Shown: piece after piece, positions 9,760 to 36,553 of the stretch
How the letters are laid out: each line of letters starts with the position of its first letter
Position numbering within the stretch: position 1 is the first letter of the stretch
IMG/VR virus record: IMGVR_UViG_3300030419_000175
Location: 1 to 44,438 of that record
Direction: 5' to 3' (one strand)
Length of the DNA stretch: 44,438 nt
Source: a virus
The notes under the pieces: model-generated
The model's database searches: none
What the model saw: only the letters and a program-made list of their open reading frames with translations
What the model was told of the DNA's origin: nothing
Made by a program: the position numbers and the translations under genes

Positions 9760-10045
9760 AATGCTTGAATTAAAAAGTGAATTAGAGGTGCATCTATCTC
9801 CTACCCCTAGAGGTATTGGAGTAACTTTAGCACCTGAAACGCCAGGAAAGGCGGCTTCTTACGCAGAATATAATTGGGCGGAGCTTATAGGGGGATTGTG
9901 TGAAGCTCATACAATACCAGTGTTACATGATAAAGATGTACGAATTACTGAAGACAGTTACAAATATCTCCTCGAAGTAGTTCTTATAATGAAACAGCAA
10001 TCTGATTTACTGTTAAAGAAAGCTAAATCATTTACTGTAGTTTAA
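9749..10045 (+). CDS. Hypothetical protein, last gene of the + strand block
   Basis: 98 residues from ATG 9749 (MPSKMLELKS); the in-frame ATG at 9704 would run deep inside the previous gene. It has strands at the N-terminus (SELEVHLSPTPRGIGVTLA), an Ala-rich middle and a helical C-terminus (YKYLLEVVLIMKQQSDLLLKKA). There is no known motif. Its TAA shares the bases TTAA with the stop codon of the opposing large virion gene, so the two transcription blocks converge without any spacer. Confidence 0.55.
   Translation: MPSKMLELKSELEVHLSPTPRGIGVTLAPETPGKAASYAEYNWAELIGGLCEAHTIPVLHDKDVRITEDSYKYLLEVVLIMKQQSDLLLKKAKSFTVV
10042..10045. other. Shared TTAA: overlapping stop codons of convergent genes
   Basis: The self-complementary TTAA gives TAA on + (10043-10045) to the 98-residue gene and TAA on - (10042-10044) to the 1039-residue gene. 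There is no intergenic base and no stem plus T-run between the two convergent blocks. Confidence 0.9.
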
Positions 10046-13000
10046 TCCTCTAATAAGACATCAAAAGGACTCTTTATTTTTGCATCACCTTGCTCGCCAA
10101 ACAGTTCTTGTGATTGCACCATTTCATCTGTTCTATACATTTCTAATACAGCATCTGCCATAGCCGCTCCAATATATCCTTCTGTAGATATCATATTTTT
10201 TATAAGAGAATCTTTACCAGATTCAGCAATTTTTAATTTTCCCAACACTGCATCCGCAAGAGTTTCTTTAACTAAAATCTTAGAGAATAATTTCTGAGCA
10301 CCTAATCGTGATACAACTCCTATAAATTTAGCTGGGTCTAAAGTATATAAGTTAGATATAAGTTGAGCACCTGACAAAGCAGAACCTGCGTCTGCTCCAG
10401 TGGCTTGTATAACTTGTGCATAATTTTGTATACCATCCATTATCTTTAATGTATCGTTATCAAAGAATCCTTTCAAAGTTTTATTTTCTTTTATTAATCT
10501 TATTAGTTCCCCCATTTTTTTAGAGTCAATGGTGTAATCTCCTACTTCTCCGTAGGCACTATTTTTACTAACTGGAACTACAACCCCACTGCCTTGTGAG
10601 AATACATAATCAATTAATCCTCTTTTAATATTTTCTATAGCTTGTCCTTGATTTTGTATCCCCTCTCTTCTTGCAACTTGAAGTAAACTTTTAGCTGCAC
10701 CCTCAATATCTACAGGGTCTGCAAATATTTCTCCTATAGCTACACCTAATTGTGTTGTATCGGGTCGTTCTGCTATTTCTCTAGCTAAAGTATTCTCTAA
10801 TCTCACAACTTCTGATGCTTCTCTTCTCAATAATTTTTCATCTATATCAGAGATGCCCAATAACTCTAGCTCTTTTCTAGAGAAAGAATCTAAATATTCT
10901 CCTACTGCTGTTATTGAACCTTTCTCAGATAAATCTGTGGTGGCTATCTTATTTAATTTACTTGCTAGTTGTATACGAAATGCATTTTTGAGAGCTGTCA
11001 TTCCTTCAAAATCTTCTGAACCTAGTTCTTTGCCTCTGGTAGCTCTTAGTTTTCCCTTTATAGCAAAAGCTTCATCTGTTTGAGTTTTTGTAGTTCTTAT
11101 AGTTTTTAATCTATTAACTATATAGTTTTGAATTTTATTTAAATCTTCTAGTGCTATATCAGGAACTTCAGCACTTGGTGTACCAATTTGTCTACCTATT
11201 GTTGCAGTAGGAATGTCTTTAAGAGTTGATTGTATATTACCAGTGGCTTTGCTTAATGTAGTTACTAATAGTTCCTGAGATGTTAAGTCTTCAGTTTCCT
11301 TAAAGAATGAATTAGCTACATTTAAATCATTTTTTATGGAATCTAATAAATTTTTATCAGCTCCTACTGGATTTTTTATAGTTTCTTGTATAATTCTTCT
11401 AAGAGAATTTAATTCAGTTATTCTTTGTTTTACCCCAGGTTTCATATTTTTACCACCAGGGAATGCCTCTATGAGGTCGGTAGCCATCTCTCCCAGTTTC
11501 ATAGAATATAAATGGAGTAACTTTGCAGGAGACTTATAATACTCTTGTTTGACAGCATCAATTCCCTCTACATTGTCAACAAAGTTTTTCATCCCTGCAA
11601 CTACTTGTTGTCTATTGAGTGTATTATTTTTTCCTAATATAGCTAATTGTTCTTTGATAATATTAAAAGAGCCATCATCCCAATCAGCTGTAGATTGTAC
11701 ACCTTTTATCTTATCAGCCTCTGATGTAGGAACAATAACTTTTGGACTAATTTGCACAGAGTTTTTAATTGCAGTTAAATCCATTGGTTTAAAACCAATT
11801 TTATCATGTGCTATTCTATATAATTCTTGTGCTTCAAGTCTTCTTAAATCTTTAAACAATAAAAGCATCTCTGCATTTACTCTTCCTGCTTCTCCTAAAT
11901 CTAATCGACTAAAATCTTTTTTAAATTTAGCAAAAGAGTTTTGAAATTGTTTTATATCTCCTTGACCTTTTCCAGCTCGCACATTTTCCACGTACTCATA
12001 CAAAGCTCTATTTTGTTTACGAAACTCATAAGCTATTATGTTGGTAACTTGGTCAGCAAGCCCCACCATACGATTTAAAATTTTGTTTGCTGAAATTTGA
12101 GAAGGCAAAAGCTTTTCTAACTTATGCAATCTTCTAAAATTATCTGCCTCCACAGCTGACCTAAATGTATCATCGTTAATGGCTACCTCTTCAAACTTTT
12201 TTCTAAGCTTATCAGATATTTGACGAGATACATATGTTACAGTTTGCTTAGTTACAGGAAGTCCTCCAAATAGCATCTCTAGTCTTCCAGATAACTTTTC
12301 CTGTTCTGTTAAATTAAAATCAAAAGGTGCGGCCATAGAATCGCCAAACATTTTTAAAGCATTAAAAAATTCATTTTTATCATCATCAGTTTTTAGTCCT
12401 AGCCCCTCTGCAGCTTCATTACGTAATTTTTCAGTAAATACGCCACCTGAATATAGCGTAGCAAGAGTTACAAATGGTGAAGCTACTTTTCCTGCAACAC
12501 CAAGCTTTGATGTAAGTGCTCCTGCAGTTAAAGCAGTAGATACAACTGCTGCACTCGCTCCTGTTTCAGCTGCTAGAAAAGGTACAAGACTTTGCGTGTA
12601 GTCAATAAATCCTGCAGTGGGTCTTCCATAAGGGGTAAATGTGCCATCATCTCTTTCCACACTCATAAGTAATGAACCTTCAAATAAAAGAGGATTTGCC
12701 CCCTCGTCATAAATAAAGGTTACTTCTCTCTTTGAACCATCTGATTTTTCAGTAACACCACTTTTGTATGCTTCTTCTACTTGTTCTTTTTCTAAACCAA
12801 AGCCACTTTTTAATTGTCCAAGTCCAGTGACATACGTAGCGGCCTCTGGGTCTTTTCCTTCATAACCAACGTCACCAGCTAGCTCTTCTCTGCGGGCTTT
12901 AGTAATGGGTTCTGCCTCTTCGATTTGTTTTACATATTCTTTTCCCGCTACTGCCCCAGGTAAGAAGACTTGTTCCATTATTGCAGAACTTTCTTTTATG

Positions 13001-13161
13001 GCATCTAATAAATTAAATGATTTCTTTTGAGGTTCAACAGGAGCTTCAGGAGGCATTGCCTCTACAAAATCTGGTCTTGTAGAAACAACAGGAGGTTCTT
13101 CTACTTGTGTTTCTTGCTTTTCATCTTCCTCTAGTAATATATCAAAGGGACTAGTTGTCAT
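10042..13161 (-). CDS. Large internal virion / DNA-ejection-type protein with twin terminal tags
   Basis: 1039 residues, the most promoter-distal gene of the structural block. Mostly alpha-helical, with one long small-residue hydrophobic region at 191-243 (LVPFLAAETGASAAVV onward) that could insert into a membrane. Size, helical content and position next to another 1068-residue protein fit the internal core or ejection proteins of podoviruses (T7 gp15/gp16 analogues), but I see no lytic transglycosylase motif, so this is a contextual call. The N-terminus reads SPFDILLEED (residues 4-13) and the last nine residues read SPFDVLLED (1031-1039), a near-identical tag at both ends. A good ribosome site (AAGGAAAA) precedes the ATG. 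Confidence 0.6.
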   Translation of the reverse strand: MTTSPFDILLEEDEKQETQVEEPPVVSTRPDFVEAMPPEAPVEPQKKSFNLLDAIKESSAIMEQVFLPGAVAGKEYVKQIEEAEPITKARREELAGDVGYEGKDPEAATYVTGLGQLKSGFGLEKEQVEEAYKSGVTEKSDGSKREVTFIYDEGANPLLFEGSLLMSVERDDGTFTPYGRPTAGFIDYTQSLVPFLAAETGASAAVVSTALTAGALTSKLGVAGKVASPFVTLATLYSGGVFTEKLRNEAAEGLGLKTDDDKNEFFNALKMFGDSMAAPFDFNLTEQEKLSGRLEMLFGGLPVTKQTVTYVSRQISDKLRKKFEEVAINDDTFRSAVEADNFRRLHKLEKLLPSQISANKILNRMVGLADQVTNIIAYEFRKQNRALYEYVENVRAGKGQGDIKQFQNSFAKFKKDFSRLDLGEAGRVNAEMLLLFKDLRRLEAQELYRIAHDKIGFKPMDLTAIKNSVQISPKVIVPTSEADKIKGVQSTADWDDGSFNIIKEQLAILGKNNTLNRQQVVAGMKNFVDNVEGIDAVKQEYYKSPAKLLHLYSMKLGEMATDLIEAFPGGKNMKPGVKQRITELNSLRRIIQETIKNPVGADKNLLDSIKNDLNVANSFFKETEDLTSQELLVTTLSKATGNIQSTLKDIPTATIGRQIGTPSAEVPDIALEDLNKIQNYIVNRLKTIRTTKTQTDEAFAIKGKLRATRGKELGSEDFEGMTALKNAFRIQLASKLNKIATTDLSEKGSITAVGEYLDSFSRKELELLGISDIDEKLLRREASEVVRLENTLAREIAERPDTTQLGVAIGEIFADPVDIEGAAKSLLQVARREGIQNQGQAIENIKRGLIDYVFSQGSGVVVPVSKNSAYGEVGDYTIDSKKMGELIRLIKENKTLKGFFDNDTLKIMDGIQNYAQVIQATGADAGSALSGAQLISNLYTLDPAKFIGVVSRLGAQKLFSKILVKETLADAVLGKLKIAESGKDSLIKNMISTEGYIGAAMADAVLEMYRTDEMVQSQELFGEQGDAKIKSPFDVLLED

Positions 13162-13170
13162 TTATTTTCC

Positions 13171-16100
13171 TTATTCTTTTAAATCTGGATAACTTTGTAA
13201 GAATTGATTAATAACGTCATTCTTATTAATTTTACCTTTAGTGGAGTAAACATAAATGTCAGACATTACAAATTGCATTTGTTGAGTAGCCATCTTTAAT
13301 TTTAGTCTAAGCACATCTCTGTCAGACTCAGACATTGCTTTAAATTCTTTTCCACTAGGAAATTTTTGTAATCCATAACTTCTTAATAAATCATAGAAAC
13401 CTTCCCTAGCTAACGTAGGTTTGTCATTTTTACCTATTTTGAAACCAAGTTGTTTTTCTATATCATATATCAGTTTATTTTCTACTTTTAATCCAGCATA
13501 CTCTGTATCTGTTAAAGGTGTATATGATTCTGATATTGGAGTTGTGTTATCAAAATCTGCATCATTTTTTCTAAGCATGACATCTTTTAGCATAGCTGCT
13601 TGAACAACCATTAGTGCTGCTTGACCTCTTGTAGTTCCTAGTAAACTTGTATCTTCTAGAACTGCTACATATTGTCTAACTATTTTTAAATCTTGGTCAG
13701 ATAATCTTGGGTCTTCAAAAATAGCATTTTTAGCTGTTCCAAGTAGTCTAATACCTTCTGCTCTTGCTTGTTGTATTGCTTGTATACCATCAGGACTCTT
13801 TCCAAACAGTGGTTGAGTTTTTCCTCCCATACTGTTAAGTAAATCTGATATATTTGCACCAAATAATTGAAGTGTGCCAGTTATATTAAAGGCATTAGGA
13901 TGATTAATAAAAGTCTTTAATATTTTTCCTGTAGTTAATACACTATCCGTTGATGCTCTTATTTGTTTTTTATTTTTTTCTAAGTCGTCTAAATCCATAG
14001 TTATTTTATTTCCAAGAGCAGTCAAAGATGGAACTTGTACAAGCACAGGTTTACCAGTGTCAAAATCCATATCAACTAAAAAGTTTCCATTTTTAGTAGT
14101 TCTAATGTTTCCTTGAGCTAGCATTCCTGCATAGATTGTTCTAGCATCACTTTCTTGTTTTTTAGTCATATTAGGATTTTTTAATTTTTCAGCTTCTATA
14201 ATAGCATTTACTTTTTCTTCTAGTGTAGTTGGTGGAGGTAATCCTGCTTTTCGTCCTACTTTCACCAATTGTACAGCAATAGCATTTAATTTCTTTAAGT
14301 TTTCTTCTCTTTGTTTACTTTCAAGCATTGGGAGATTAGCCAATGTTTCAAAGTTTGTTATTAAATCTATTGCCTTTGCGTGTTCATCACTAGTAAAATC
14401 AGAAGAGTTTTCCTGTAGTTTTTTTCTTGCCGCTTTAATTTCTTCAGATAAAGTTTTTACGTTAGCATCATATTGTGCATCAGAAAAATTAGAAGCCTTA
14501 AAAGCAAGATTAGCCAAATCCGCTCTTTCTGCACTATGCTTGAGGATTTCTTCTTTTATTTTTTCAGGAGTATACACAGCATTTCCATCGGCATCTTTTT
14601 GATTAGTCAAAAGTCTTAACTTATTGTCTTTATCAACAATTTCATCAAAAACAGTCTGAACCATTTCTTGTTGTGTACCATTTAGTTTGTCAAATTTTGA
14701 CCTTACTTGATTTAAAGTGCCTTCAGAAGATTTTACTGAAGTATTAAAAGTACTTAATATCTCAAGACCATCATCATCTTCTTCTTTTTCAAGTCCAGAA
14801 CTTAAGATAGCAGCTTGTGCAAATCTTATAGCGGAATCATCAACTTGTTTTCCAGTTTTATATGCCTCATACAAAGGAAGATAATTATTTACTGCATAAT
14901 CTTTCAGAGATTTTTTTACTATGACTTCAGGGTCATCATCACTAGGAACATCAATCTCTCCACTAAGTTCACTTAATTTTTTCACTATTATATCATGAGT
15001 TTCTTGCATAGTTTCAGGTATTTTAATAGGTTTAACTCCTATAATTTTATGTATTTTTGTTAATAGATTAGTTTCTTTTTCTCGAATATCTTTAGTGTCT
15101 AGTTTTCTTACGCTTTTCTGTAAATTAGCATACTCTGTCTGTAAATCTACCAAATGTTGTATACCAGTTTTACCATCAATATATTGACCTGGACTAAGTG
15201 TTTCTATTTTTTGTTTTAATCCATCTAAAGCTATTTTAATTTCAGGAGATAGAACATCTATTTCTCTACCTATAATTAATTTTAACTCTGCTTTTGTTAG
15301 TTGTATCTCTTCTCTTAAAAGTATGAGTTCATTACCTGATATGTTAGGATTGCCTGCTTGTGCAATGAGTTTGTTCAATTGCGTATAGTGTTTTCTAGCA
15401 TCTGCTTTTGCTATTATATTTTGCTTTGGGTTATTAATAAATTTAATAGTAGAATCAAATAGAGGTTCTAAATTTTTTGATAATGTACCTATGCCCTGCC
15501 TATCTAAAAGCATACCATTTAACATAGTTTCTATTTGTAGTGCTCTTTCGCTATTTGGTTCTTCTTCAATTATTTCTAAAAATTCTTGACTAACAGCTCC
15601 TACAGTCATATTTTTATTATCATTATTTTTTATATTTGTTTCAGTTGCGTGGCCTAGTGTTGAAGCTGTGCTAATTAAACTTTTACTTCTGTCTAATGTC
15701 AATGCTTCCACTAAAGGATTAGTTTTATTTTTTATAGCTAATTTTATAGCAGATTGACCTATATTTAGTTTTTTCATAACTGGAGGACTAGACAAGGCTT
15801 CAAATTCTTTTCTAGTCATACCCATTTCTGAAAGTGCAGAATCTTCAATAGCACGTTGCCCTTGACCATGTAGTAGTATTTGAAAAACACTGCGGTCTTC
15901 TGCTTCAGGAGTAGTAGCAGATGTTGTACCGCCTCCTGTCATTAATTTAGAAGTCTGTTGAGATTCATCTGTAGTTTCAGTAGGTGTCTTCTTTTTGGTT
16001 GCATCAAGTTCAGTGGTATCTTTTATGGTGTAATCACTTTTATTATTTATTAAATAATCTATAGCACCTTTATCTCCAGCTAATCCTGCATCTTCAATCA

Positions 16101-16377
16101 TTTGAATAGTTTGCATTAAATTTTCTATGGGTTGATTTTCAAATCCTTCTACATTTTTTAAGATTCCAGCTTGTGATAATAGTTTGGAGCGTCTTGCATT
16201 ACCAGTAGCTAAGCTTGCATTATAGCTTTTCTTTTTTTGAGCAACTAATGCTTTAAAACTCTCTTTAGCTTTTTCATCTCTTGGTAAAACATTATTCCAA
16301 TAATTATCTGTTAATCTGTCCATACCTCCAGCAATAACTGTTGCTATAGGTGATGATAAAAAACTACCCAATCCCAT
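13171..16377 (-). CDS. Very large coiled-coil-rich virion protein (probable internal/ejection protein)
   Basis: 1068 residues. After a short hydrophobic start (MGLGSFLSSPIATVIAGGM) the protein is almost entirely charged and helical, with many Lys/Glu/Leu-rich stretches suggesting long coiled coils. There is no enzymatic signature. With the adjacent 1039-residue product it has the size and pairing of podoviral internal core proteins that leave the head with the DNA and build a channel across the envelope. The Shine-Dalgarno GGAGG lies inside the last codons of the upstream gene, so the two are coupled. The intervals on both sides are only 1 and 9 bp. Function is inferred from context. Confidence 0.6.
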   Translation of the reverse strand: MGLGSFLSSPIATVIAGGMDRLTDNYWNNVLPRDEKAKESFKALVAQKKKSYNASLATGNARRSKLLSQAGILKNVEGFENQPIENLMQTIQMIEDAGLAGDKGAIDYLINNKSDYTIKDTTELDATKKKTPTETTDESQQTSKLMTGGGTTSATTPEAEDRSVFQILLHGQGQRAIEDSALSEMGMTRKEFEALSSPPVMKKLNIGQSAIKLAIKNKTNPLVEALTLDRSKSLISTASTLGHATETNIKNNDNKNMTVGAVSQEFLEIIEEEPNSERALQIETMLNGMLLDRQGIGTLSKNLEPLFDSTIKFINNPKQNIIAKADARKHYTQLNKLIAQAGNPNISGNELILLREEIQLTKAELKLIIGREIDVLSPEIKIALDGLKQKIETLSPGQYIDGKTGIQHLVDLQTEYANLQKSVRKLDTKDIREKETNLLTKIHKIIGVKPIKIPETMQETHDIIVKKLSELSGEIDVPSDDDPEVIVKKSLKDYAVNNYLPLYEAYKTGKQVDDSAIRFAQAAILSSGLEKEEDDDGLEILSTFNTSVKSSEGTLNQVRSKFDKLNGTQQEMVQTVFDEIVDKDNKLRLLTNQKDADGNAVYTPEKIKEEILKHSAERADLANLAFKASNFSDAQYDANVKTLSEEIKAARKKLQENSSDFTSDEHAKAIDLITNFETLANLPMLESKQREENLKKLNAIAVQLVKVGRKAGLPPPTTLEEKVNAIIEAEKLKNPNMTKKQESDARTIYAGMLAQGNIRTTKNGNFLVDMDFDTGKPVLVQVPSLTALGNKITMDLDDLEKNKKQIRASTDSVLTTGKILKTFINHPNAFNITGTLQLFGANISDLLNSMGGKTQPLFGKSPDGIQAIQQARAEGIRLLGTAKNAIFEDPRLSDQDLKIVRQYVAVLEDTSLLGTTRGQAALMVVQAAMLKDVMLRKNDADFDNTTPISESYTPLTDTEYAGLKVENKLIYDIEKQLGFKIGKNDKPTLAREGFYDLLRSYGLQKFPSGKEFKAMSESDRDVLRLKLKMATQQMQFVMSDIYVYSTKGKINKNDVINQFLQSYPDLKE

Positions 16378-16378
16378 A

Positions 16379-16912
16379 TTATTCCTCCATAGTAGCAGGC
16401 TTACTCATAAGTCCTCCTGCATCTTCTTTTTGTAATTCTTTTTCTACTACTTCTTGACCAGCTTCTATTTTTTCTGGTCCAACACCTTTAAGGTCTTCTA
16501 CAGATTTTGCAAGTTTAATCATATTTCTTTCTGCTTCTCTTTCATACCCATGTACAAATTCTATATCTGCCGCTTTTGCTATGTTAACAATTAACATAAC
16601 TAATTCATCCATAATAAGTAGAGCTACATCAGGAGAATATAACCCCTCTCCTATGCCTTGTAAAACCATGCCTTGCACTATTTGTGCAACAGGTATTCTT
16701 GCTTCTAGCATACTAAACAAACCAAACATAGTGCCTTCGTCAAGAATAGTTTCCATGTACATACGCATCACATCATTTACATCTGTATACTGTGGTGGAT
16801 TTTCCCACGGATACTTTCCTGGTTCTTCTGTTAAAGATTGACCTGGTATACGTGACTCAAACATACTACGTGTTTTACCTGATGGCATTACCAATTCTTC
16901 ATCAAAATCCAT
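16379..16912 (-). CDS. Conserved virion-cluster protein, unknown function
   Basis: 177 residues. The N-terminus contains IPGQSLTEEPGKYPWENPPQY, a Pro-rich block that I recall from hypothetical proteins of other marine phages, followed by long amphipathic helices (MRMYMETILDEGTMFGLFSML; VALLIMDELVMLIVNIA). The C-terminus is charged. There is no membrane signal strong enough to call, because the hydrophobic helix carries acidic residues. It lies directly upstream of the 1068-residue protein and its stop region supplies that gene's ribosome site. It is probably a minor structural or assembly protein. Confidence 0.55.
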   Translation of the reverse strand: MDFDEELVMPSGKTRSMFESRIPGQSLTEEPGKYPWENPPQYTDVNDVMRMYMETILDEGTMFGLFSMLEARIPVAQIVQGMVLQGIGEGLYSPDVALLIMDELVMLIVNIAKAADIEFVHGYEREAERNMIKLAKSVEDLKGVGPEKIEAGQEVVEKELQKEDAGGLMSKPATMEE

Positions 16913-16914
16913 TA

Positions 16915-17139
16915 TTATGTCCTCATTAATGATTCTAAAAATCTAAAATATTTAGAAGTTGCTTGTGTATCTGGGGGTCTAACTGCACTTTGTACTTGTG
17001 AAGTTTGTACATTTGGATTATCTACAAAATATTTAGAAAAATTTACCTCTGGTAAATACACATCAGCTTGACTTGCAGATGAGCTTTTACCTGCTCCCAA
17101 TCTACTTAATATAACAGATTTTATTATATCACCAAACAT
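16915..17139 (-). CDS. Hypothetical small protein
   Basis: 74 residues; its ATG overlaps the stop of the preceding 611-residue gene (TAATG), with GGAG just upstream. It starts with a short hydrophobic stretch (MFGDIIKSVILSRLGAG) and then has Ser/Gln-rich linker-like sequence. There is no recognised domain. The tight coupling on both sides makes it a real gene of the late operon. Confidence 0.55.
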   Translation of the reverse strand: MFGDIIKSVILSRLGAGKSSSASQADVYLPEVNFSKYFVDNPNVQTSQVQSAVRPPDTQATSKYFRFLESLMRT

Positions 17140-18974
17140 TACGTATCTCCTTCGTCTTCTGTTGTAGCTTTAGGTTTGCTTGTAGCCGCAGCTATAAGAG
17201 TTGCCAAAAAGTCTCCTAACGAAGTAGCATTCTTTTGTGCAACTTGTTTATCAAACATATCCTGTGTTGTTTCTGCTTCTAATACAGCCATAGAATAATT
17301 AAATGCTCTATCTAAATTATTTTGTGAACTTTGATATACAAAAGATGCTTCATCTCTATACTCTTGCCAAATATTACTTAAAGCAGAATTGGATAGATTA
17401 AAATAATTTTGAGCATTAATTTGATTAGCTGCATTTTGTGCGGCAGTATTTGCTGTATTTACATTTCTACGCCATTGTACGTTACTTTGTGCAATAACCA
17501 TAGCATTCTGTGCGTTAAATTGTTCTGTCTGTGCTGTTAAGTTAGCTTGAAATGTAGCCATAGAGTTTAACTGTCCAGCATTGAATTGATTTGATGCATT
17601 CTCTGATGCCGCATTTGATGTATTAATAGTATTTTGTAAATTAGCAAAAAACTGGTCAGTTTGATTTTGTGATGTAGCATTAAACTGTGCGGCTGCATTG
17701 TTAGCTGCTTGATTACTTAACATAGCTTGTTGTTGAGCTGCTTGATTAATTGTTTTAGCTTGTTGTGCATTGGTAAGATTAGCCATGTCCATAGCCAAAA
17801 AGTTTTGAGCATTTTGTATTTCTGCTTGTTGTTGATTACTCAAATTAGCCATATCCATGTTAGCTACTGTAGCAGCATTTGCTAATGCCATAGCTTGCTC
17901 ATTAGATAAATTCTGTAGATTCAGTGTTTCAATCATTTTAGAATTAGCAAACACTCTGTTTTGTTCTTGTGTAAACGTCATGTTTGCTGCTTCTGAGAAC
18001 TTATTAGCATTGAGGATGTTGACTTGCTGTTGATTACTAAGTTCTTGACCTGTTAAAGACGCTTCTACTTGCATCTTAGCTAAACTAACTTGTTGTTTAT
18101 TAGATAAGTTAGCCATTTCTATTTGTAAATTATTTTGTGTATTAGTTAAGTTAGCCTGTTGTTGATTATTCATAATGGCTTTTGCAGTGTCAAAGTAAGT
18201 AGCCGCATCACGAGTAGCAATAGGTAATGCCGCTTCTAGTGCTGCTTGTGTTACAGCCGCTCCTGCCATTGATGATGCAGATAATCCTCTAGCCGCCATT
18301 TGTTGATTAGCAGAACGAATGATACCTGCCGCCCATCCAGGTACTTTGCCATCATCAAATTGTTTTCCTATATTCTCCAACTGTCCTTGAACAGTCATAT
18401 CTTCTGTAACTTCCATAGTAGCCGCTTGCATATCAGATTTATAATCTGTTGTAGCGGCATCATAGTCACCTAGAAAACTTTTATCTGCTTTGGCTGCTCC
18501 TGCTATTTCTTCTTTGCCTACAGTTCTACCTGCCATAGGGTCAATCAAGCCCTGTACTTGTCCTGTAGCCGCTGTTCCTTGTGAAGCTACACCAGTTTGT
18601 GCTTGTATAGTATCGGATACTGTGCCTTGTGCCGCATCCATAGTAGCGGCTGTTGCTTGGTCTGCAGTTACAACATTAGCAGCTGTCTTAGTAGTATCCG
18701 CAATCTTAGCTGTGTCTGCTGTAGCCGTATCACCTACAGTAGGTGTAGTAATTTGACCTGTTCCTTCGGCTATTTGTTCGTTAGGTTGTACTGTTTGTGT
18801 TTGAGTTTTATATACAGCTTGTTGTGGCATTAATGGGTTCACCACATTTTGCCCCATAATATCAGTTACACTAACAGCATTCTGTTGTGCTTGTTCCTCA
18901 TCAGCTTTTACATTTTGATTTGGATTAGTGTTTGGAGTGCTGTCTATTGGTGTAGGTTGTACTAAACTTGCCAT
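17139..18974 (-). CDS. Ala/Asn/Gln-rich fibrous virion protein with 22-residue repeats
   Basis: 611 residues. Residues 1-200 are a Thr/Ala/Gln-rich, probably disordered region. From residue 268 the sequence carries seven consecutive units of exactly 22 residues, each opening with L-[ST]-N-x-Q-Q (for example LSNQQQAEIQNAQNFLAM). The spacing continues further on as [Q]-[FI]-N at 430, 463, 485 and 518, all multiples of 11 apart. Eleven-residue periodicity is typical of right-handed or shallow coiled coils and amphipathic helices. The last 80 residues are more globular. It is probably a long internal rod, tail needle or ejection component, as it lies among the putative internal proteins. No enzymatic motif. 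The start has AAAGG upstream. Confidence 0.6.
   Translation of the reverse strand: MASLVQPTPIDSTPNTNPNQNVKADEEQAQQNAVSVTDIMGQNVVNPLMPQQAVYKTQTQTVQPNEQIAEGTGQITTPTVGDTATADTAKIADTTKTAANVVTADQATAATMDAAQGTVSDTIQAQTGVASQGTAATGQVQGLIDPMAGRTVGKEEIAGAAKADKSFLGDYDAATTDYKSDMQAATMEVTEDMTVQGQLENIGKQFDDGKVPGWAAGIIRSANQQMAARGLSASSMAGAAVTQAALEAALPIATRDAATYFDTAKAIMNNQQQANLTNTQNNLQIEMANLSNKQQVSLAKMQVEASLTGQELSNQQQVNILNANKFSEAANMTFTQEQNRVFANSKMIETLNLQNLSNEQAMALANAATVANMDMANLSNQQQAEIQNAQNFLAMDMANLTNAQQAKTINQAAQQQAMLSNQAANNAAAQFNATSQNQTDQFFANLQNTINTSNAASENASNQFNAGQLNSMATFQANLTAQTEQFNAQNAMVIAQSNVQWRRNVNTANTAAQNAANQINAQNYFNLSNSALSNIWQEYRDEASFVYQSSQNNLDRAFNYSMAVLEAETTQDMFDKQVAQKNATSLGDFLATLIAAATSKPKATTEDEGDT
17712..18173 (-). 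repeat. 22-residue (66-bp) tandem repeat region
   Basis: Seven in-register units encode residues 268-421 of the 611-residue protein. Unit starts fall at residues 268, 290, 312, 334, 356, 378 and 400. The third from last and second from last are most alike; the unit at 334 is degenerate (FTQEQN). Repeat length is exact at the protein level while codons differ. Confidence 0.8.
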
Positions 18975-19697: not shown

Positions 19698-21197
19698 TTA
19701 CCCTTCTAGTTTAGCTACTTTAGCTTCTAATGCTTCTATTTTTTCATTTGCTTCTTGCAATGCTTTAATCATAGGTGCAATTAATTCTGTATACCTAAGA
19801 CCATAACGATAATTACTACCATCTTGATTTTCACTAATATCACTTTTAATTAAACCTGCAAAATCAGTGTTTGATTTACTTATGTCAGATAACACAGTTT
19901 CAACATCTTGAGCAATTAATCCATAATGAGTTCTAGTTTTATTATTAAATTTATAACTTTTTGGAGAAAGTCTTTTAACAAAATCTAAACCTAAATCACT
20001 GTCTACTATAGTATTTTTTTCTTTTTCATCTGACGTTTGAATTGTTCCATTAGTAGCAAAAATATCGTCAAAACGAGCATTAGATAAACCTAAATCAACT
20101 GCATCATCATTTGCTGTTCCACTTTCATTTGCAGGAACTATAACATCAGAACCATTAGAAAATTGCAAACAAACATTACCTTGACCAATTTGAAGTTCTG
20201 CACCACGATAAGAAATAAATCCTTTTGAAACTCCATCTATAAAAAAATCTATAAATTTTCCATCACTTGTATTACGTCCAATATTTACAGAAGCTCCTAC
20301 ACTTGTTGATGAAGCGTTTCTTGTAAATTCTGCATATCCATCTGCAGCTAATGTGTGACCTGTATTTGCAATACCTAAAGAAGTTCTAGCCACCATTAAG
20401 TTTTGACTAGTATCTATCCTCATAGCTTCATTAGAAGAACCATTAGTAGAAAATGTCATGTTAGATGCGTCACTTGTAATTAAACGCATTGGATTAGTTG
20501 TTGAAATAATATCAATACCAGAGCCACTTGGAGCAATTTGTAAATTTCTTCCAGAACCATCATCTACTTGTAATGTTGCACCTGGACTATCTGTGCCAAT
20601 CCCAACATTACCACTATTATTAAATGAAGCTATCTCAGTGACGTTGCTACTGCTACCAGTGTTAGACCCATCACCATAAACAACTCCTAATCTTGAGCCA
20701 TTAGCAACTATAAAGTAATCTTTAGATTGACCTGTATCACTAATGGCAATAGCAGGATTTGTAGTATCTTCTATAAATAAAGTAGCTTGAGCATTTGCAT
20801 AAGAAATAGGACTAGCATTTATACCTATATTTCCAGAACCTTGTACAAATACTTTTTCTACACCAACATTTCCAATAGTCATTAAATCATCAGTGTCTGC
20901 TAATGCTTGTTCCCCTGTACCATCTTTTTTAGAAGCACGAAAACGAAACACTGCTCCATTTCCATCAGTACTTGGTGTAGTGCTAGTTGCTGTTACAGAA
21001 TAAGCAGTAGCTCCTTCAGTAGCTGTTGTTATTCTTACACCGCCCTCTGTGCCACTTTCAGGTGCTAATTGACCATAGGTTGCAGTTGGCAAAATGCCTG
21101 TCATACCATGTGCAACATCAGAATCAGTTAAGGAAATGGTACTACTAAACTCTACTGCACCACTTTGTAAATCAGCAACGTCTCTAGCTCTAGTCAT
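19698..21197 (-). CDS. Tail fibre with C-terminal S74 intramolecular chaperone
   Basis: 499 residues. The body is low-complexity Gly/Ser/Thr/Asn beta sequence with fibre repeats such as NSGNVGIGTDSPGATLQV. The C-terminus is a Peptidase_S74 domain: TSDEKEKNTI (Ser389 and Lys392/Lys394), then FVKRLSPKSYKF, then HYGLIAQDVE, and a terminal coiled coil (MIKALQEANEKIEALEAKV). In this family the domain trimerises the beta-helical shaft and then cuts itself off at the Ser. The protein should be a trimeric host-recognition fibre. An AAAGGA site precedes the ATG. It is the last of four fibre genes in the operon and the only one with the self-cleaving domain. Confidence 0.85.
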   Translation of the reverse strand: MTRARDVADLQSGAVEFSSTISLTDSDVAHGMTGILPTATYGQLAPESGTEGGVRITTATEGATAYSVTATSTTPSTDGNGAVFRFRASKKDGTGEQALADTDDLMTIGNVGVEKVFVQGSGNIGINASPISYANAQATLFIEDTTNPAIAISDTGQSKDYFIVANGSRLGVVYGDGSNTGSSSNVTEIASFNNSGNVGIGTDSPGATLQVDDGSGRNLQIAPSGSGIDIISTTNPMRLITSDASNMTFSTNGSSNEAMRIDTSQNLMVARTSLGIANTGHTLAADGYAEFTRNASSTSVGASVNIGRNTSDGKFIDFFIDGVSKGFISYRGAELQIGQGNVCLQFSNGSDVIVPANESGTANDDAVDLGLSNARFDDIFATNGTIQTSDEKEKNTIVDSDLGLDFVKRLSPKSYKFNNKTRTHYGLIAQDVETVLSDISKSNTDFAGLIKSDISENQDGSNYRYGLRYTELIAPMIKALQEANEKIEALEAKVAKLEG

Positions 21198-22141: not shown

Positions 22142-23932
22142 TTAATTGGTTACGTAACTTATAGTTACTGCAAATTGTGAATTATTATTAATGTTTGTAT
22201 CAGCTGTTAAATCACTTCCACTACTAGTATGAAATAAAGCTCCTTGAGCAAGATTTGTTTCTGGTGCAAAACCTACATTACCATCTGTTAAAGAAGAAAA
22301 ATTAAATAAATAATAAACTGCTGCTGCTCCATGTTGAACACTAGCATTTTGACAACCAAAAGGTAAAGTTGCTGTAATTCTACCTGAGTTTGAACCTTTA
22401 CTGTCTAAATTTATTCTAAGTGTAACAACAACAAGTCTACCTATTTTTGTATATGTACCATTACTAGCATTAATACTTATACCTGATGTTGAACCACTTA
22501 TTGATAATGAAGGTGTGTATGTACCTTCTTCATAATCGTCTAAAGCATTAGCAGTTGCAGTATCTCCATTAAAAGTTAAACCACCTCCAGACAATATTCT
22601 CATGCGTTCTGTAGGACTAGCAGAACCTCCATTAGTAGAAAAAATTAAATCTGTTGGCATATCATTAGCAGCAGGTGTGCCATTAACTTTAGCAAAAATT
22701 AACGCTCCATAAGTATCTAAATCAGTGCCATCATCTCCTATAAAAAGTATAGAACCAAGTGTGTCACTATCTTGCACTATTGTAAAATTATCTGCTGTGG
22801 TATTTCGACTTTTTGCAAGCATAAGTCCTGAACCAAATGCACCATTATCTCTTCTGACAGCAGATAAAAATCCATCAAATGCAGAACCTGTTACTTGAAG
22901 TCCGGGTTGTCCACCTGAAATTGTTGTATCTGTTCCAACTTGGCTAATTGTAACTCTTCCAGAGCTATCTATAATGACTGTATCAGAAGCACTTGTACCA
23001 AAGGTAAGTTTATCACCATTATGATTATATTGAATATATCCTCTATATCTAGCAGTTCCTGATGTTGCATCTCCAAAGTGAATAGTGTTAACACCATCAG
23101 TAGCAGACAAAAATTGTGCAATAGTGCTTGCAGTTGATGTGCTTCCAATTTGCAGAGGGCCGTATCCTGCATCTGTGCTAGAACCCAAAAGTAAATCACC
23201 ATCACTGTTGAGCCTCATATACTCAGTAGAACCATCAGCATTATCAAATGTTTGAACGCCACCTCTAAAGGTAAGATTGGTATTAGCATCAATAGTAAAT
23301 GTTCCACTGTTGTTTGTAAATCTCCCTTTTTCACTGCCACCATCTTTAAAAATTACATCACCACCATCAGCATCAAGAGTTATATCACCTGCTGCATCTA
23401 TAGTAATACCACCACTAGCTGTTTTATTTGTAAGAGTATCTGCTGCAACACCAAAACTACCAATTTGTACTGTTTCAGTTCCACCAGCAGTAAATCCAAT
23501 TGTGTTTGCAGCGGTTCTAAATATTCCAGTATCTGTGTCACCACTAAAAGTAAAACTAGGAGATGCACTACCTCCTGTAGTACCAGCTAAAGCTCCAGTC
23601 ATTGTGTCGCCATCTATGTTTACATAACGACTATCTGAATCTGTTCTATTGTAGAAGTTAGCTACTGCAAATGTATCATACACAATTATCTCAACTATGT
23701 CATCAGCAGCTGCACCTGATGCTAATACTACTGATGTACCTGATGTAGCTGTGTAATCTGTTCCTGTTTTAAGAAGTACACCATTTAAATATACATCAAC
23801 AAAATTACTGTCTGTGTAAGTCAATGTAAGGTTCTGTGTATCTGTTCCACTAAAGGTTGTTTGACTTGCCGTAGCAGTATACATATACCTTTGTCTAACA
23901 CCTATCGTAGTAGATTTTCCTATATATGGCAT
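22142..23932 (-). CDS. Tail fibre protein (YTATA.QTTFSG-type N-terminus)
   Basis: 596 residues. The N-terminal domain (residues 1-100) is MPYIGK...GVRQRYMYTATASQTTFSG, then DVYLNGVLLKTGTDYT and VYDTFAVANFY, a fibre attachment module widespread in marine phages. The middle is Gly/Thr/Asp-rich beta-helical shaft with a GGVQTFDNADGSTEYMRL-type unit. The C-terminal domain starts at DDYEEGTYTPSLSISG and ends in a compact beta sandwich (IGRLVVVTLRINL...FAVTISYVTN), a likely host-binding tip. No S74 domain. AAAGGGG precedes the ATG. Confidence 0.8.
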   Translation of the reverse strand: MPYIGKSTTIGVRQRYMYTATASQTTFSGTDTQNLTLTYTDSNFVDVYLNGVLLKTGTDYTATSGTSVVLASGAAADDIVEIIVYDTFAVANFYNRTDSDSRYVNIDGDTMTGALAGTTGGSASPSFTFSGDTDTGIFRTAANTIGFTAGGTETVQIGSFGVAADTLTNKTASGGITIDAAGDITLDADGGDVIFKDGGSEKGRFTNNSGTFTIDANTNLTFRGGVQTFDNADGSTEYMRLNSDGDLLLGSSTDAGYGPLQIGSTSTASTIAQFLSATDGVNTIHFGDATSGTARYRGYIQYNHNGDKLTFGTSASDTVIIDSSGRVTISQVGTDTTISGGQPGLQVTGSAFDGFLSAVRRDNGAFGSGLMLAKSRNTTADNFTIVQDSDTLGSILFIGDDGTDLDTYGALIFAKVNGTPAANDMPTDLIFSTNGGSASPTERMRILSGGGLTFNGDTATANALDDYEEGTYTPSLSISGSTSGISINASNGTYTKIGRLVVVTLRINLDSKGSNSGRITATLPFGCQNASVQHGAAAVYYLFNFSSLTDGNVGFAPETNLAQGALFHTSSGSDLTADTNINNNSQFAVTISYVTN

Positions 23933-33688: not shown

Positions 33689-36553
33689 TTAGCCTACCTC
33701 TACACCTAATTCTTTGGCTTTCTTTTTACCTTCTTCAGATTGCCAATACGCTAATGGACTTACTTCGTTTCCTTCTTTAGCGTCAGCAGGTTTGTATTGT
33801 TTATCTGCTTGTATTTCATATTTGTCATCTCTGATAGCGTTAGCATCATTAGAACTATTCATAGCATCAAAAGCCGCAGTTGTGCCTTGTTTCATAGATT
33901 CTATAACCCAAGGTTCTACAGTATCTCCAGTTCTAGCTGCAGCGTAAAACGATTGCTCTGCTCTAGATAATTTAAAAAAGTCTTTCATTTGTAATCCAGT
34001 CTTTTTAAAATCTGTATATTGTTCTGCATTCATTAAACCATTAGGGTCAAATTTTCCATCATTTAATGCGGTGTTTATTTTACCGTACGCATCAGCCTCT
34101 TGCGGACTAACTTTTGTAACACCATATTGTGTAAATCCTAAGTCTTTAGCATTTTTAGCAGCTCTCTCACTTCTTCTTTCGCTAGCAGCTTCTCTTCTTG
34201 ATTTTTCTGCTAATTCAAATTTACTTAGTTCAGAAAGTTTTTTACCTGTAATAGGGTCTATTTCTGCGTAAGTTCCAAACTCTTGTACAATAGGCTGTCC
34301 CTTAGAATCATATCCAGTGACTAAATTCATAGTCTGAGGGTTTTCTAGATTATATCCAGCGGCACTTAATTCTGCAGAAGTTAAATTGTTAACATCATAC
34401 GTTCCCTCTTTAGCTCCAGGTTTATTTAAAGCAACTGCTATATCAGCTTTACTTGGATTATAGTTTGCATTTCGTAAAGCTGCCTTTTGAGGATTAGTAA
34501 TACTTTCATAAAAAGCTGAAGGTATGTTAGCAAGAGGCATATCACTATATTTTCCAGTTGGTGATGTAGGGTCACCTAAAGCTCTAGGTGGACCAAACAA
34601 TTTAGCGGCATCGGTTTTAACGTCCTCTCCAATTTTTTTCAATTGTTTTTTCGCATCTTTTTCTGTAAATTGACTTATTGTTTTTACATCATCTTTAAAT
34701 TGACCAAAATTAAATCCAGGATTTTGTTCTGGGTCTAGGTATTGTAAAACATCAGGTCTATTTCTATCTTCTCTAGATTGCTCCGATTCTTGTAGTGCTT
34801 TTTCTAGATTTGACAATTCTGTTTGTCCTGTTCCTTCTTTAAGATAATCTTTTGCCTCTTCACTCATAACAGGAGGAGCAGGTAAAGCTGGACCACCTAT
34901 AATTGGGCCTGGGAACTCAGGTGGAGGTATAATAGGTGTAATAGGAGTAGGGTCAATTCCAGGTCCAGGTACAACACCTCCAGGAGGTTCATCAGGACTC
35001 ATCCAAGGTTTTCTTTGGTCTTCTGGTAAATAATGTCCTATATTTGGAGCAACTACTTTTGGTGCAGAATATCCATACGGTGTTTGAGTATACGTAGGAG
35101 TATAAGCTGGGTTATACGTAGGAGTTGGTCCTGGAGCAGGAAGAGGATTAGGTAATACAGGCATTACTGGAGGATAAAAATCCAAAAAATCCTGAAAATT
35201 ACCTCCCCTTGTATTTTGGTCAGAATAAAAACCTGGAGGACTACCCCCTCTTGTAAGCGGTGGAGAATTGTAAGTATATTGACTAGAGGCTGCTTGTGCC
35301 ATAGGTATAACTCCTGCTTGTGCTTTCATTATGCCACCTTGTCGAGTCTTCTTTGTCTTTCCCTCATCAATATAGGATATCTGCCCATCCATTTCCATTT
35401 CTTGTAATCCGCCTAATGCTTCTCTTCGCATTCCTTCATACGTTGCTAAACCGTGGTATCTTACAACATTTGCAGGAACAACTAACTCTCCCTCACTCAT
35501 AAGAACTAATTGGTCATCTGCAACTTCTTTTTTAGTAGCACCTGGTGGAGGATTGCCTTCTTCTGCTTTACTATAATCTATTTCAGGAGCACCAAGTCCA
35601 ATCATAACAGCCATACCTGTAGATTCCTTTGGTTCTTTATCAACTTTAACAGTACCCTTTTTAGCCATAGTAGGCATTGCAGGTGTTTTTGCTTTAGCCT
35701 CCGCTAACTCATTCTCTAATTCTGCAATAGCAATGTCTCTAGGGTCATTAGATGCAGGTTGTTTTTTAGGTCTACCTAAAGGTCTTGCTGGAGGTTGTAA
35801 TTGTGCATCTTTTGGTCCGCCTCCTGTAGGTGCTGAAGTTGCTTGTGTCATTGGCATAGTTCCCTGTTTTGCTTTCATAATACCACCTTTTCTTTGAGTA
35901 ACAGTATAATCATCTGTAGATTTCATGGGGTCTGGCTCTGGCATATTTTGAGGAATAGGTGCAGGAGCAGGGGTAGAAGCTGTTCCACCTTGTTCAGGTG
36001 GTGTCATTGGACCTTGCATTTCAGGAACAGGATTGTTACCAAAGCTTTTTATTCCTTTCCTTCCATTTACTTCTTCTGCTTCTTTACCTTGTCCTATTAA
36101 AAGAGCATTATCAATAGCCTTTTTAATAAAATCATCTCTATTAGGGTATTTTTCTCGTAAAGCTTTACCATATAAATTATTGTTGTGGTCAATTTTACTT
36201 TCTGCGTCATCCCCCTCTCGTCCAGCAATAAAAGCTTGTCCTTGCACAGATTCTACAAGTCCGCCTAATAATATATGTCGTATCGTGTCTTCTGTTGCAT
36301 CCTTGTCTTGAAATTGATACTCTTCTGCAATATCTTTGGCTATTTGAAACGCATCCATTACAGCATCATTGTCTTGTAATACAAGTGCTCCTAATTTATT
36401 TATGCCAGCTTTTATTTTTGTTCCAAGAGAGGAATCCTCTCTAGCACCATAAGGAATTAATCCTAATCTTTCTACTAATGATTTTTTATTTTGACCAGTA
36501 AACTCTGTATCTGTGTAGTCATCCATTGATAAGGGTCTCATGTCTTCAGCCAT
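33689..36553 (-). CDS. Large protein between portal and scaffold, DUF6973-like head, duplicated GGIMKA motif
   Basis: 954 residues, not a family with a known function. Residues 85-150 read as a small domain with DTIRHILLGG, E118 and a DHNNNLYG block (D122-N126), close to the R-H...E...D-x-x-NN-x-x-G pattern of DUF6973 domains. Two copies of [RK]-x-GGIMKA-x-x-G-x-x-PM-x-QA lie at about 222-239 and 405-422. Between them, residues 345-390 hold DDQLVLMSEGELVVPANVVR and ALGGLQEMEMDG, a block frequent in uncultured marine phage proteins. A long Pro/Gly-rich linker (440-560) follows, then a helical C-terminus. Position between portal and scaffold suggests a head-internal or morphogenesis protein. 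GGAGG stands before the ATG. Confidence 0.6.
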   Translation of the reverse strand: MAEDMRPLSMDDYTDTEFTGQNKKSLVERLGLIPYGAREDSSLGTKIKAGINKLGALVLQDNDAVMDAFQIAKDIAEEYQFQDKDATEDTIRHILLGGLVESVQGQAFIAGREGDDAESKIDHNNNLYGKALREKYPNRDDFIKKAIDNALLIGQGKEAEEVNGRKGIKSFGNNPVPEMQGPMTPPEQGGTASTPAPAPIPQNMPEPDPMKSTDDYTVTQRKGGIMKAKQGTMPMTQATSAPTGGGPKDAQLQPPARPLGRPKKQPASNDPRDIAIAELENELAEAKAKTPAMPTMAKKGTVKVDKEPKESTGMAVMIGLGAPEIDYSKAEEGNPPPGATKKEVADDQLVLMSEGELVVPANVVRYHGLATYEGMRREALGGLQEMEMDGQISYIDEGKTKKTRQGGIMKAQAGVIPMAQAASSQYTYNSPPLTRGGSPPGFYSDQNTRGGNFQDFLDFYPPVMPVLPNPLPAPGPTPTYNPAYTPTYTQTPYGYSAPKVVAPNIGHYLPEDQRKPWMSPDEPPGGVVPGPGIDPTPITPIIPPPEFPGPIIGGPALPAPPVMSEEAKDYLKEGTGQTELSNLEKALQESEQSREDRNRPDVLQYLDPEQNPGFNFGQFKDDVKTISQFTEKDAKKQLKKIGEDVKTDAAKLFGPPRALGDPTSPTGKYSDMPLANIPSAFYESITNPQKAALRNANYNPSKADIAVALNKPGAKEGTYDVNNLTSAELSAAGYNLENPQTMNLVTGYDSKGQPIVQEFGTYAEIDPITGKKLSELSKFELAEKSRREAASERRSERAAKNAKDLGFTQYGVTKVSPQEADAYGKINTALNDGKFDPNGLMNAEQYTDFKKTGLQMKDFFKLSRAEQSFYAAARTGDTVEPWVIESMKQGTTAAFDAMNSSNDANAIRDDKYEIQADKQYKPADAKEGNEVSPLAYWQSEEGKKKAKELGVEVG

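Follow-up and report, generated by a model that had tools for sequence, protein, structure and literature searches.

What kind of protein is built from consecutive units of exactly 22 residues, and what could it do for a short-tailed phage? The locus that raises this question lies in a 44,438-base virus record, here called the window, which covers part of the genome of a short-tailed phage of the HMO-2011 type with marine bacterial hosts; phages of this type are also its closest named relatives. The open reading frame (ORF), at 17139–18974 on the minus strand, encodes a protein of 611 amino acids, which we denote the rod protein. Its homologues include HMO-2011 gp25 and proteins of CRP and HTVC phages and, more distantly related, proteins of the Vibrio phage CHOED, the Aeromonas phage MQM1, the Pseudoalteromonas phage Slicky01, the Sinorhizobium phage phiM6 and Rhizobium RHph phages. 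In the phage records examined these homologues are annotated as hypothetical proteins, except for one "huntingtin" and one without annotation. The rod protein matches no family in Pfam, PHROG or NCBIfam and no PDB sequence at E-values up to 1, and a scan of a genome collection matched 10 loci, all on metagenome-assembled contigs. The accessible parts of the literature (mainly open papers) on phage hendecads, on 22-residue or tape-measure repeats and on HMO-2011 virions do not describe the family, and no virion proteomics covering the rod protein was found in those on HMO-2011-type phages.

The protein opens with a Thr/Ala/Gln-rich part (residues 1–165, positions 18480–18974, minus strand as for all segments of this ORF) that is predicted to be disordered, with pLDDT mostly below 50. 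A small helical domain, the N-flank, occupies residues 192–256 (18207–18401; pLDDT block means of 79–91) and has the family consensus TVQGQL...PxWAAGA...RGLGASS...ALPIA. On the other side of the repeats lies a proline-free C-flank (residues 486–556, 17307–17519; ..IAQSNxQWRR..NLWQxYxD..), which is ungapped among the homologues for which gaps were listed. Between these two anchors stretches a proline-free repeat region of 229 residues (257–485, 17520–18206), which contains the seven 22-residue units (268–421, 17712–18173) and a C-terminal part made of 11-residue units with QFN marks (422–485, 17520–17711). The window protein carries both flank domains of the family, at a spacing that falls on the 11-residue grid described below. 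A separate N-terminal domain (MGYxGP..) opens 120 of the 300 homologous ORFs, including that of locus L089, and is nearly exclusive to the rod family, with one match in any other ORF; the window protein does not have it.

An earlier note on this DNA had described seven gapless units of exactly 22 residues, and the ORF translation bears this out. Pairs of units share a mean identity of 0.28, compared with a mean of 0.11 and a maximum of 0.169 in shuffles (none of 5000 reached 0.28), and the autocorrelation has maxima at lags 22, 44 and 33. The motif L-[ST]-N-x-Q-Q, given as the start of every unit, holds for four of the seven (those beginning at residues 290, 312, 378 and 400) but not for the other three, which begin MNNQQQ, FTQEQN and LSNEQA. 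Unit position 3 is Asn in six of the seven, position 5 is Gln in all seven and position 6 is Gln in five. The QFN/QIN marks at residues 430, 463, 485 and 518 do share a single phase modulo 11, as had been proposed. Asn and Gln together make up 36% of the window repeats. Recent DNA duplication of the units was ruled out, as their pairwise DNA identity averages 0.45 and reaches at most 0.67.

Is this register a property of the whole family? Among 72 aligned sequences (the collected proteins after those with identical C-ends were dropped), length differences inside the repeat region are only 22 and 66 residues; one extra 22-residue unit (residues 260–281, 18132–18197) is present in the window protein and one relative and absent from the other 70. 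In order to avoid alignment bias, length was taken as the flank-to-flank distance between two non-repeat HMM anchors (residues 192–256 and 486–556). Across 310 loci, 300 ORFs contained the N-anchor, 306 the C-anchor and 298 both, yielding 264 distinct repeat regions. These span 97 to 757 residues and fall into 19 length classes, of which 18, holding 263 of the 264 regions, leave the same remainder when divided by 11; for 239 regions this is also true of division by 22. The sole off-grid region, at L205, differs from its 218-class relatives by a gap of 4 residues, about one helical turn. All 15 later-fetched loci, which lay outside the building of the anchors, were on the grid, including one of a new class (515). 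As controls from the same proteins, the lengths of the C-tails (42 classes) and of the N-parts (179 classes) are scattered over all residues modulo 11. The homologues thus keep the phase, whose loss the earlier note had named as one of two outcomes that would refute its reading.

The long versions step by 110 residues (317, 427, 537, 647 and 757). In the 757-class protein of L154:2243-7252 we observed a super-repeat of 110 residues, made of five 22-residue units with 50% self-identity at lag 110, which would explain this series. Recombination between units, by adding blocks, can account for steps of 22 or 110, and since unequal recombination between repeats preserves their period anyway, the grid alone is no proof of selection. 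The near absence of other indels among divergent homologues, however, suggests constraint. That the register of the 11-residue modules is locked, and that rod length shifts by whole modules, is strongly supported by these data.

Several lines of evidence point to a helix. Not one proline occurs among the 62,421 residues of the repeat regions or the 18,744 residues of the C-flanks, compared with 6.59% in the N-parts and 3.93% in the N-flanks. An AlphaFold monomer model of the window protein, computed with 80 sequences, is mostly disordered over residues 1–165 and then consists of helices only, although at modest confidence (mean pLDDT 64.4, pTM 0.31); a monomer model of a short homologue gives the same picture (mean pLDDT 69.3, pTM 0.32). 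The alignments A2 and A3 held 79 homologues of 124 candidates and 80 of 105, and both models, being monomers, have no bearing on oligomers. The non-helical structure raised as a counter-case in the earlier note thus appears in neither model, weak as these are. In helix propensity the window repeats (0.39) closely match the phiX174 H tube (0.41). Taken together, the grid, the absence of proline and the helical models therefore indicate a continuous alpha-helical rod with a locked register. We regard it as strongly supported that the chain beyond the disordered N-part and the small helical domain forms one proline-free helical rod, and that its modules are 11 residues (three turns) long and mostly occur as 22-residue pairs. 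We take it for a helical phage rod whose length rule is unusually strict.

The high Asn/Gln content could instead mark a disordered, prion-like linker, or a beta-solenoid with coils of 22 residues. AlphaFold can overpredict helix in Asn/Gln-rich sequences, and the strongest hydrophobic period of the window repeats, 2.75, is non-helical. Such a structure is nevertheless very improbable, given that the repeat regions have no proline, that a single indel in the family departs from the 11-residue grid, that neither model contains a strand and that the repeats match the H tube in helix propensity.

How might such a helix pack? In a coiled coil or a surface helix with 11-residue repeats, hydrophobic residues are expected to recur with a period of 3.667. 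Hydrophobic power at 11/3 is only 1.2 in the window repeats, which is background (95% level of shuffles, 5.0), and the family median is 0.4 (249 regions, each 140 residues or longer). The same 249 regions show a hydrophobic power of 12.1 at 2.75 and 7.4 at 2.2. The simple hendecad coiled coil suggested by the earlier note thus lacks the single hydrophobic core stripe on which it depends, and its Asn/Gln stripe dissolves on the helix wheel, where Asn and Gln positions spread over several sides. With the signal at 3.667 absent, a one-stripe hendecad helix or a membrane-surface helix was rejected.

Proline-free 11-residue repeats are also what an amphipathic helix lying on a membrane would offer, in the manner of the 11-mers of apolipoproteins or synuclein. 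For the rod protein this is hardly credible, for besides the missing amphipathic signal, Asn and Gln occupy several sides of the helix, basic residues are few in residues 268–421 (6 K+R against 10 D+E), and mean hydropathy over 19 residues never exceeds 1.17 anywhere in the protein. The lack of a strong transmembrane stretch is in itself uninformative, because T7 gp14 and P22 gp7 score 1.31 each, compared with 1.17 for the rod.

The helix wheel places hydrophobic positions 8/11 opposite position 6 of the 11-mer, with charges clustered at 3 and 7. A Gln is conserved at position 5, which seldom carries a charge. Two hydrophobic faces would suit a helix packed between two others in a sleeve or bundle. 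The second harmonic is only a hint of two packing faces, because it is also seen in the P22 gp26 needle, included as a control, and is absent from the phiX174 H tube.

The length rule recalls tape-measure proteins, for which gain and loss of blocks is described in the accessible text of Belcaid et al. (PMC3271669). Could the rod be a tape-measure-like ruler or scaffold for an internal core or an extended nozzle? The 11-residue tape-measure proteins of siphophages (TP901-1 and those of Bacillus and Staphylococcus phages) share with it the 11-residue units, the Phe marks and the gain or loss of whole blocks, which here measure 22 and 110 residues. Runs of five or more consecutive [FW]-x10 steps occur in 114 of the 264 proteins, compared with 0 of 264 shuffled ones. 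In the window protein, however, at most two such steps follow one another, although TP901-1 itself, whose repeats are a mix of 11 and 18 residues, likewise has two. TP901-1 differs in a dominant hydrophobic power of its repeats of 44.3 at 3.667 (family median of the rod, 0.4), and in an Asn+Gln content of 11% over the whole protein, compared with 36% in the rod repeats. The 20 window ORFs scanned include no tail-tube or tape-measure PHROG, and isolated relatives (CRP phages) have short tails according to the available portion of PMC6918029. We therefore consider a ruler of this kind improbable. As a separate observation, Phe recurs every 11 residues (QFNA) in the C-terminal part of the window repeats (17520–17711) and in the same part of homologues, resembling tape-measure markers.

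The gene neighbourhood bears on the role of the rod from both sides. Upstream, the rod ORF is preceded by tail-fibre genes at 19698–21197 (an S74 chaperone fibre) and 22142–23932. Downstream, on the minus strand, follow a gene for a partner protein of 177 amino acids with a net charge of −18 (16379–16912) and two large genes that by position may encode ejection proteins, of 1068 (13171–16377) and 1039 amino acids (10042–13161). None of these three has a meaningful match in Pfam, PHROGs or NCBIfam. The partner gene co-occurs with the rod gene: BLAST against the ORFs gathered from downstream of rod genes gave 237 matches to it, and its relatives are found in 27 phage records, which belong to the phage groups that also carry the rod gene. 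A 19-residue stretch of the partner, at about residues 96–114, reaches transmembrane strength (mean hydropathy 1.90). BLAST relatives of the pair of large proteins were found only at L005. Two near-identical short motifs frame the 1039-residue protein, SPFDILLEEDE close to its N-terminus and SPFDVLLED at the C-terminus. Elsewhere in the window, a 954-residue protein without a PHROG match is encoded upstream of the capsid gene (33689–36553, minus strand).

The order of rod gene, gene of about 170 residues and larger genes recurs in HMO-2011, CRP-1, HTVC, CHOED, MQM1, phiM6, Slicky01 and ctYwJ313, with two larger genes in most named relatives and sometimes one or more ORFs inserted between the first two. 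We noted insertions at this site at L003, L087 and L092; the inserts comprise a 416-residue ORF in HTVC103P, an annotated toxin-activating lysine-acyltransferase in HTVC115P and a cell wall hydrolase in CRP-603. Products of the gp14/gp15/gp16 block of podoviruses measure about 200, 430–980 and 610–1340 amino acids according to the accessible part of PMC8954989. The downstream genes of most named relatives resemble this block in size, and the rod gene is then an extra gene before the trio, with an 11/22 repeat of its own. The window block (177, 1068 and 1039 residues) has a second gene above the quoted range, and further outliers are HTVC103P, which ends with 1671 residues, and CRP-1, with 399.

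With tail-fibre genes next to its gene, the rod might be the shaft of a fibre, needle or whisker on the outside of the particle: a helical homo-oligomer attached to the tail, free to drift in length by whole modules. The wide range of lengths fits such a shaft, and the N-terminal domain common to 120 of 300 homologues could serve to dock it. Two- or three-stranded rods, however, would be expected to have the one-stripe hydrophobic period that is absent here; moreover, no receptor-binding or trimerisation domain was recognised with Pfam, PHROG or NCBIfam, and the C-tails are short, averaging about 49 residues (12,964 in total for 264 proteins). An external shaft is thus a possible but unlikely reading.

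We propose instead that the rod serves its short-tailed phage as an accessory ejection (pilot) protein, resembling in function the phiX174 H tube, a reading to which we give slightly less than an even chance (roughly 0.45). It is favoured by the position of the gene and by the likeness to H, and a place in the virion is likewise suggested by gene position and analogy. According to the accessible text of PMC7354561, the H tube is helical, contains three hendecads, and 18 of its 23 inward residues are Asn, Gln or Arg. Both proteins have a proline-poor helical stretch with 11-residue units, many Asn and Gln and similar helix propensity. They differ in that the three hendecads of H give way to heptads, as that text has it, whereas hendecads are numerous in the rod, most of them paired into 22 residues, and we saw no heptads there; H belongs to a single-stranded DNA microvirus and the rod to a double-stranded DNA podovirus, and neither sequence nor profile comparison shows homology between the two (no more than 1.5 bits by HMM and a probability no higher than 0.2% by hhalign). 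The ejection proteins of podoviruses (T7 gp14/15/16, P22 gp7/20/16, N4 gp51/52 and DEV gp72/73) are like the rod in neighbourhood, gene sizes and helicity, but those of T7, P22 and N4 have no detectable homology to it. HMO-2011 gp25 and its relatives are orthologous and have the same flanks and grid; the window protein has one extra 22-residue unit relative to most of them.

In a pilot role, several copies of the rod would be packed in the virion and expelled ahead of the DNA. They might then align side by side, neighbouring helices packing through their two faces into a sleeve or bundle whose remaining faces would be rich in neutral amides. Such a sleeve could aid the DNA in crossing the cell envelope, in concert with the two large proteins encoded downstream and with the 177-residue partner, which may anchor in the membrane; the rod would in this way act like the H tube without being homologous to it.

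Other findings weigh against a pilot role. HMM searches detected no homology to T7 gp14, gp15 or gp16, P22 gp7, gp20, gp16 or gp26, N4 gp51 or gp52, or phiX174 H, and hhalign against the same proteins except T7 gp16 (the N4 gp52, P22 gp7 and T7 gp14 families and single sequences of the other ejection and tail proteins) gave probabilities of at most 1.6%. The two-face signal is weak, and PDB fold searches with both models returned nothing above noise. The best match (VIA, Z 6.0) is helical noise, and the weak lookalikes are V1-ATPase, augmin, a DEV neck chain, ESCRT-III, VIPP1 and a crAss001 vertex protein; the DEV neck-and-tail chain 9bgm_A (Z 4.6, rmsd 6.0, 100 aligned) has a Z inside the stated noise range of the tool. 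A fold search of BFVD gave its best matches among phage proteins, some of them evidently members of the rod family. The rod gene adjoins tail-fibre genes, not only the putative ejection genes. Finally, the eightfold length range, together with the twofold difference among SAR11 phages (141 residues in HTVC033P, 295 in HTVC103P and HTVC115P), is a poor fit to a tube that spans a fixed envelope; as a straight helix at 1.5 Å per residue, the 757 class would extend over 100 nm.

It is doubtful, but conceivable, that the rod forms a new type of DNA-delivery conduit, an amide-rich alpha-helical tube with a locked 11-residue register, of an origin independent of the H tube and adjusted in length by whole modules. 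If it did, there would be two amide-rich helical tubes of separate origin, allowing a test of whether lining a tube with amides is a general way of moving DNA. The strict length rule of this large, unnamed protein offers a direct handle, since whole-module changes can be compared with breaks of the register, with infectivity as the readout. Were the rod such a conduit, the tubes or rods within one abundant group of marine phages would differ up to eightfold in length.
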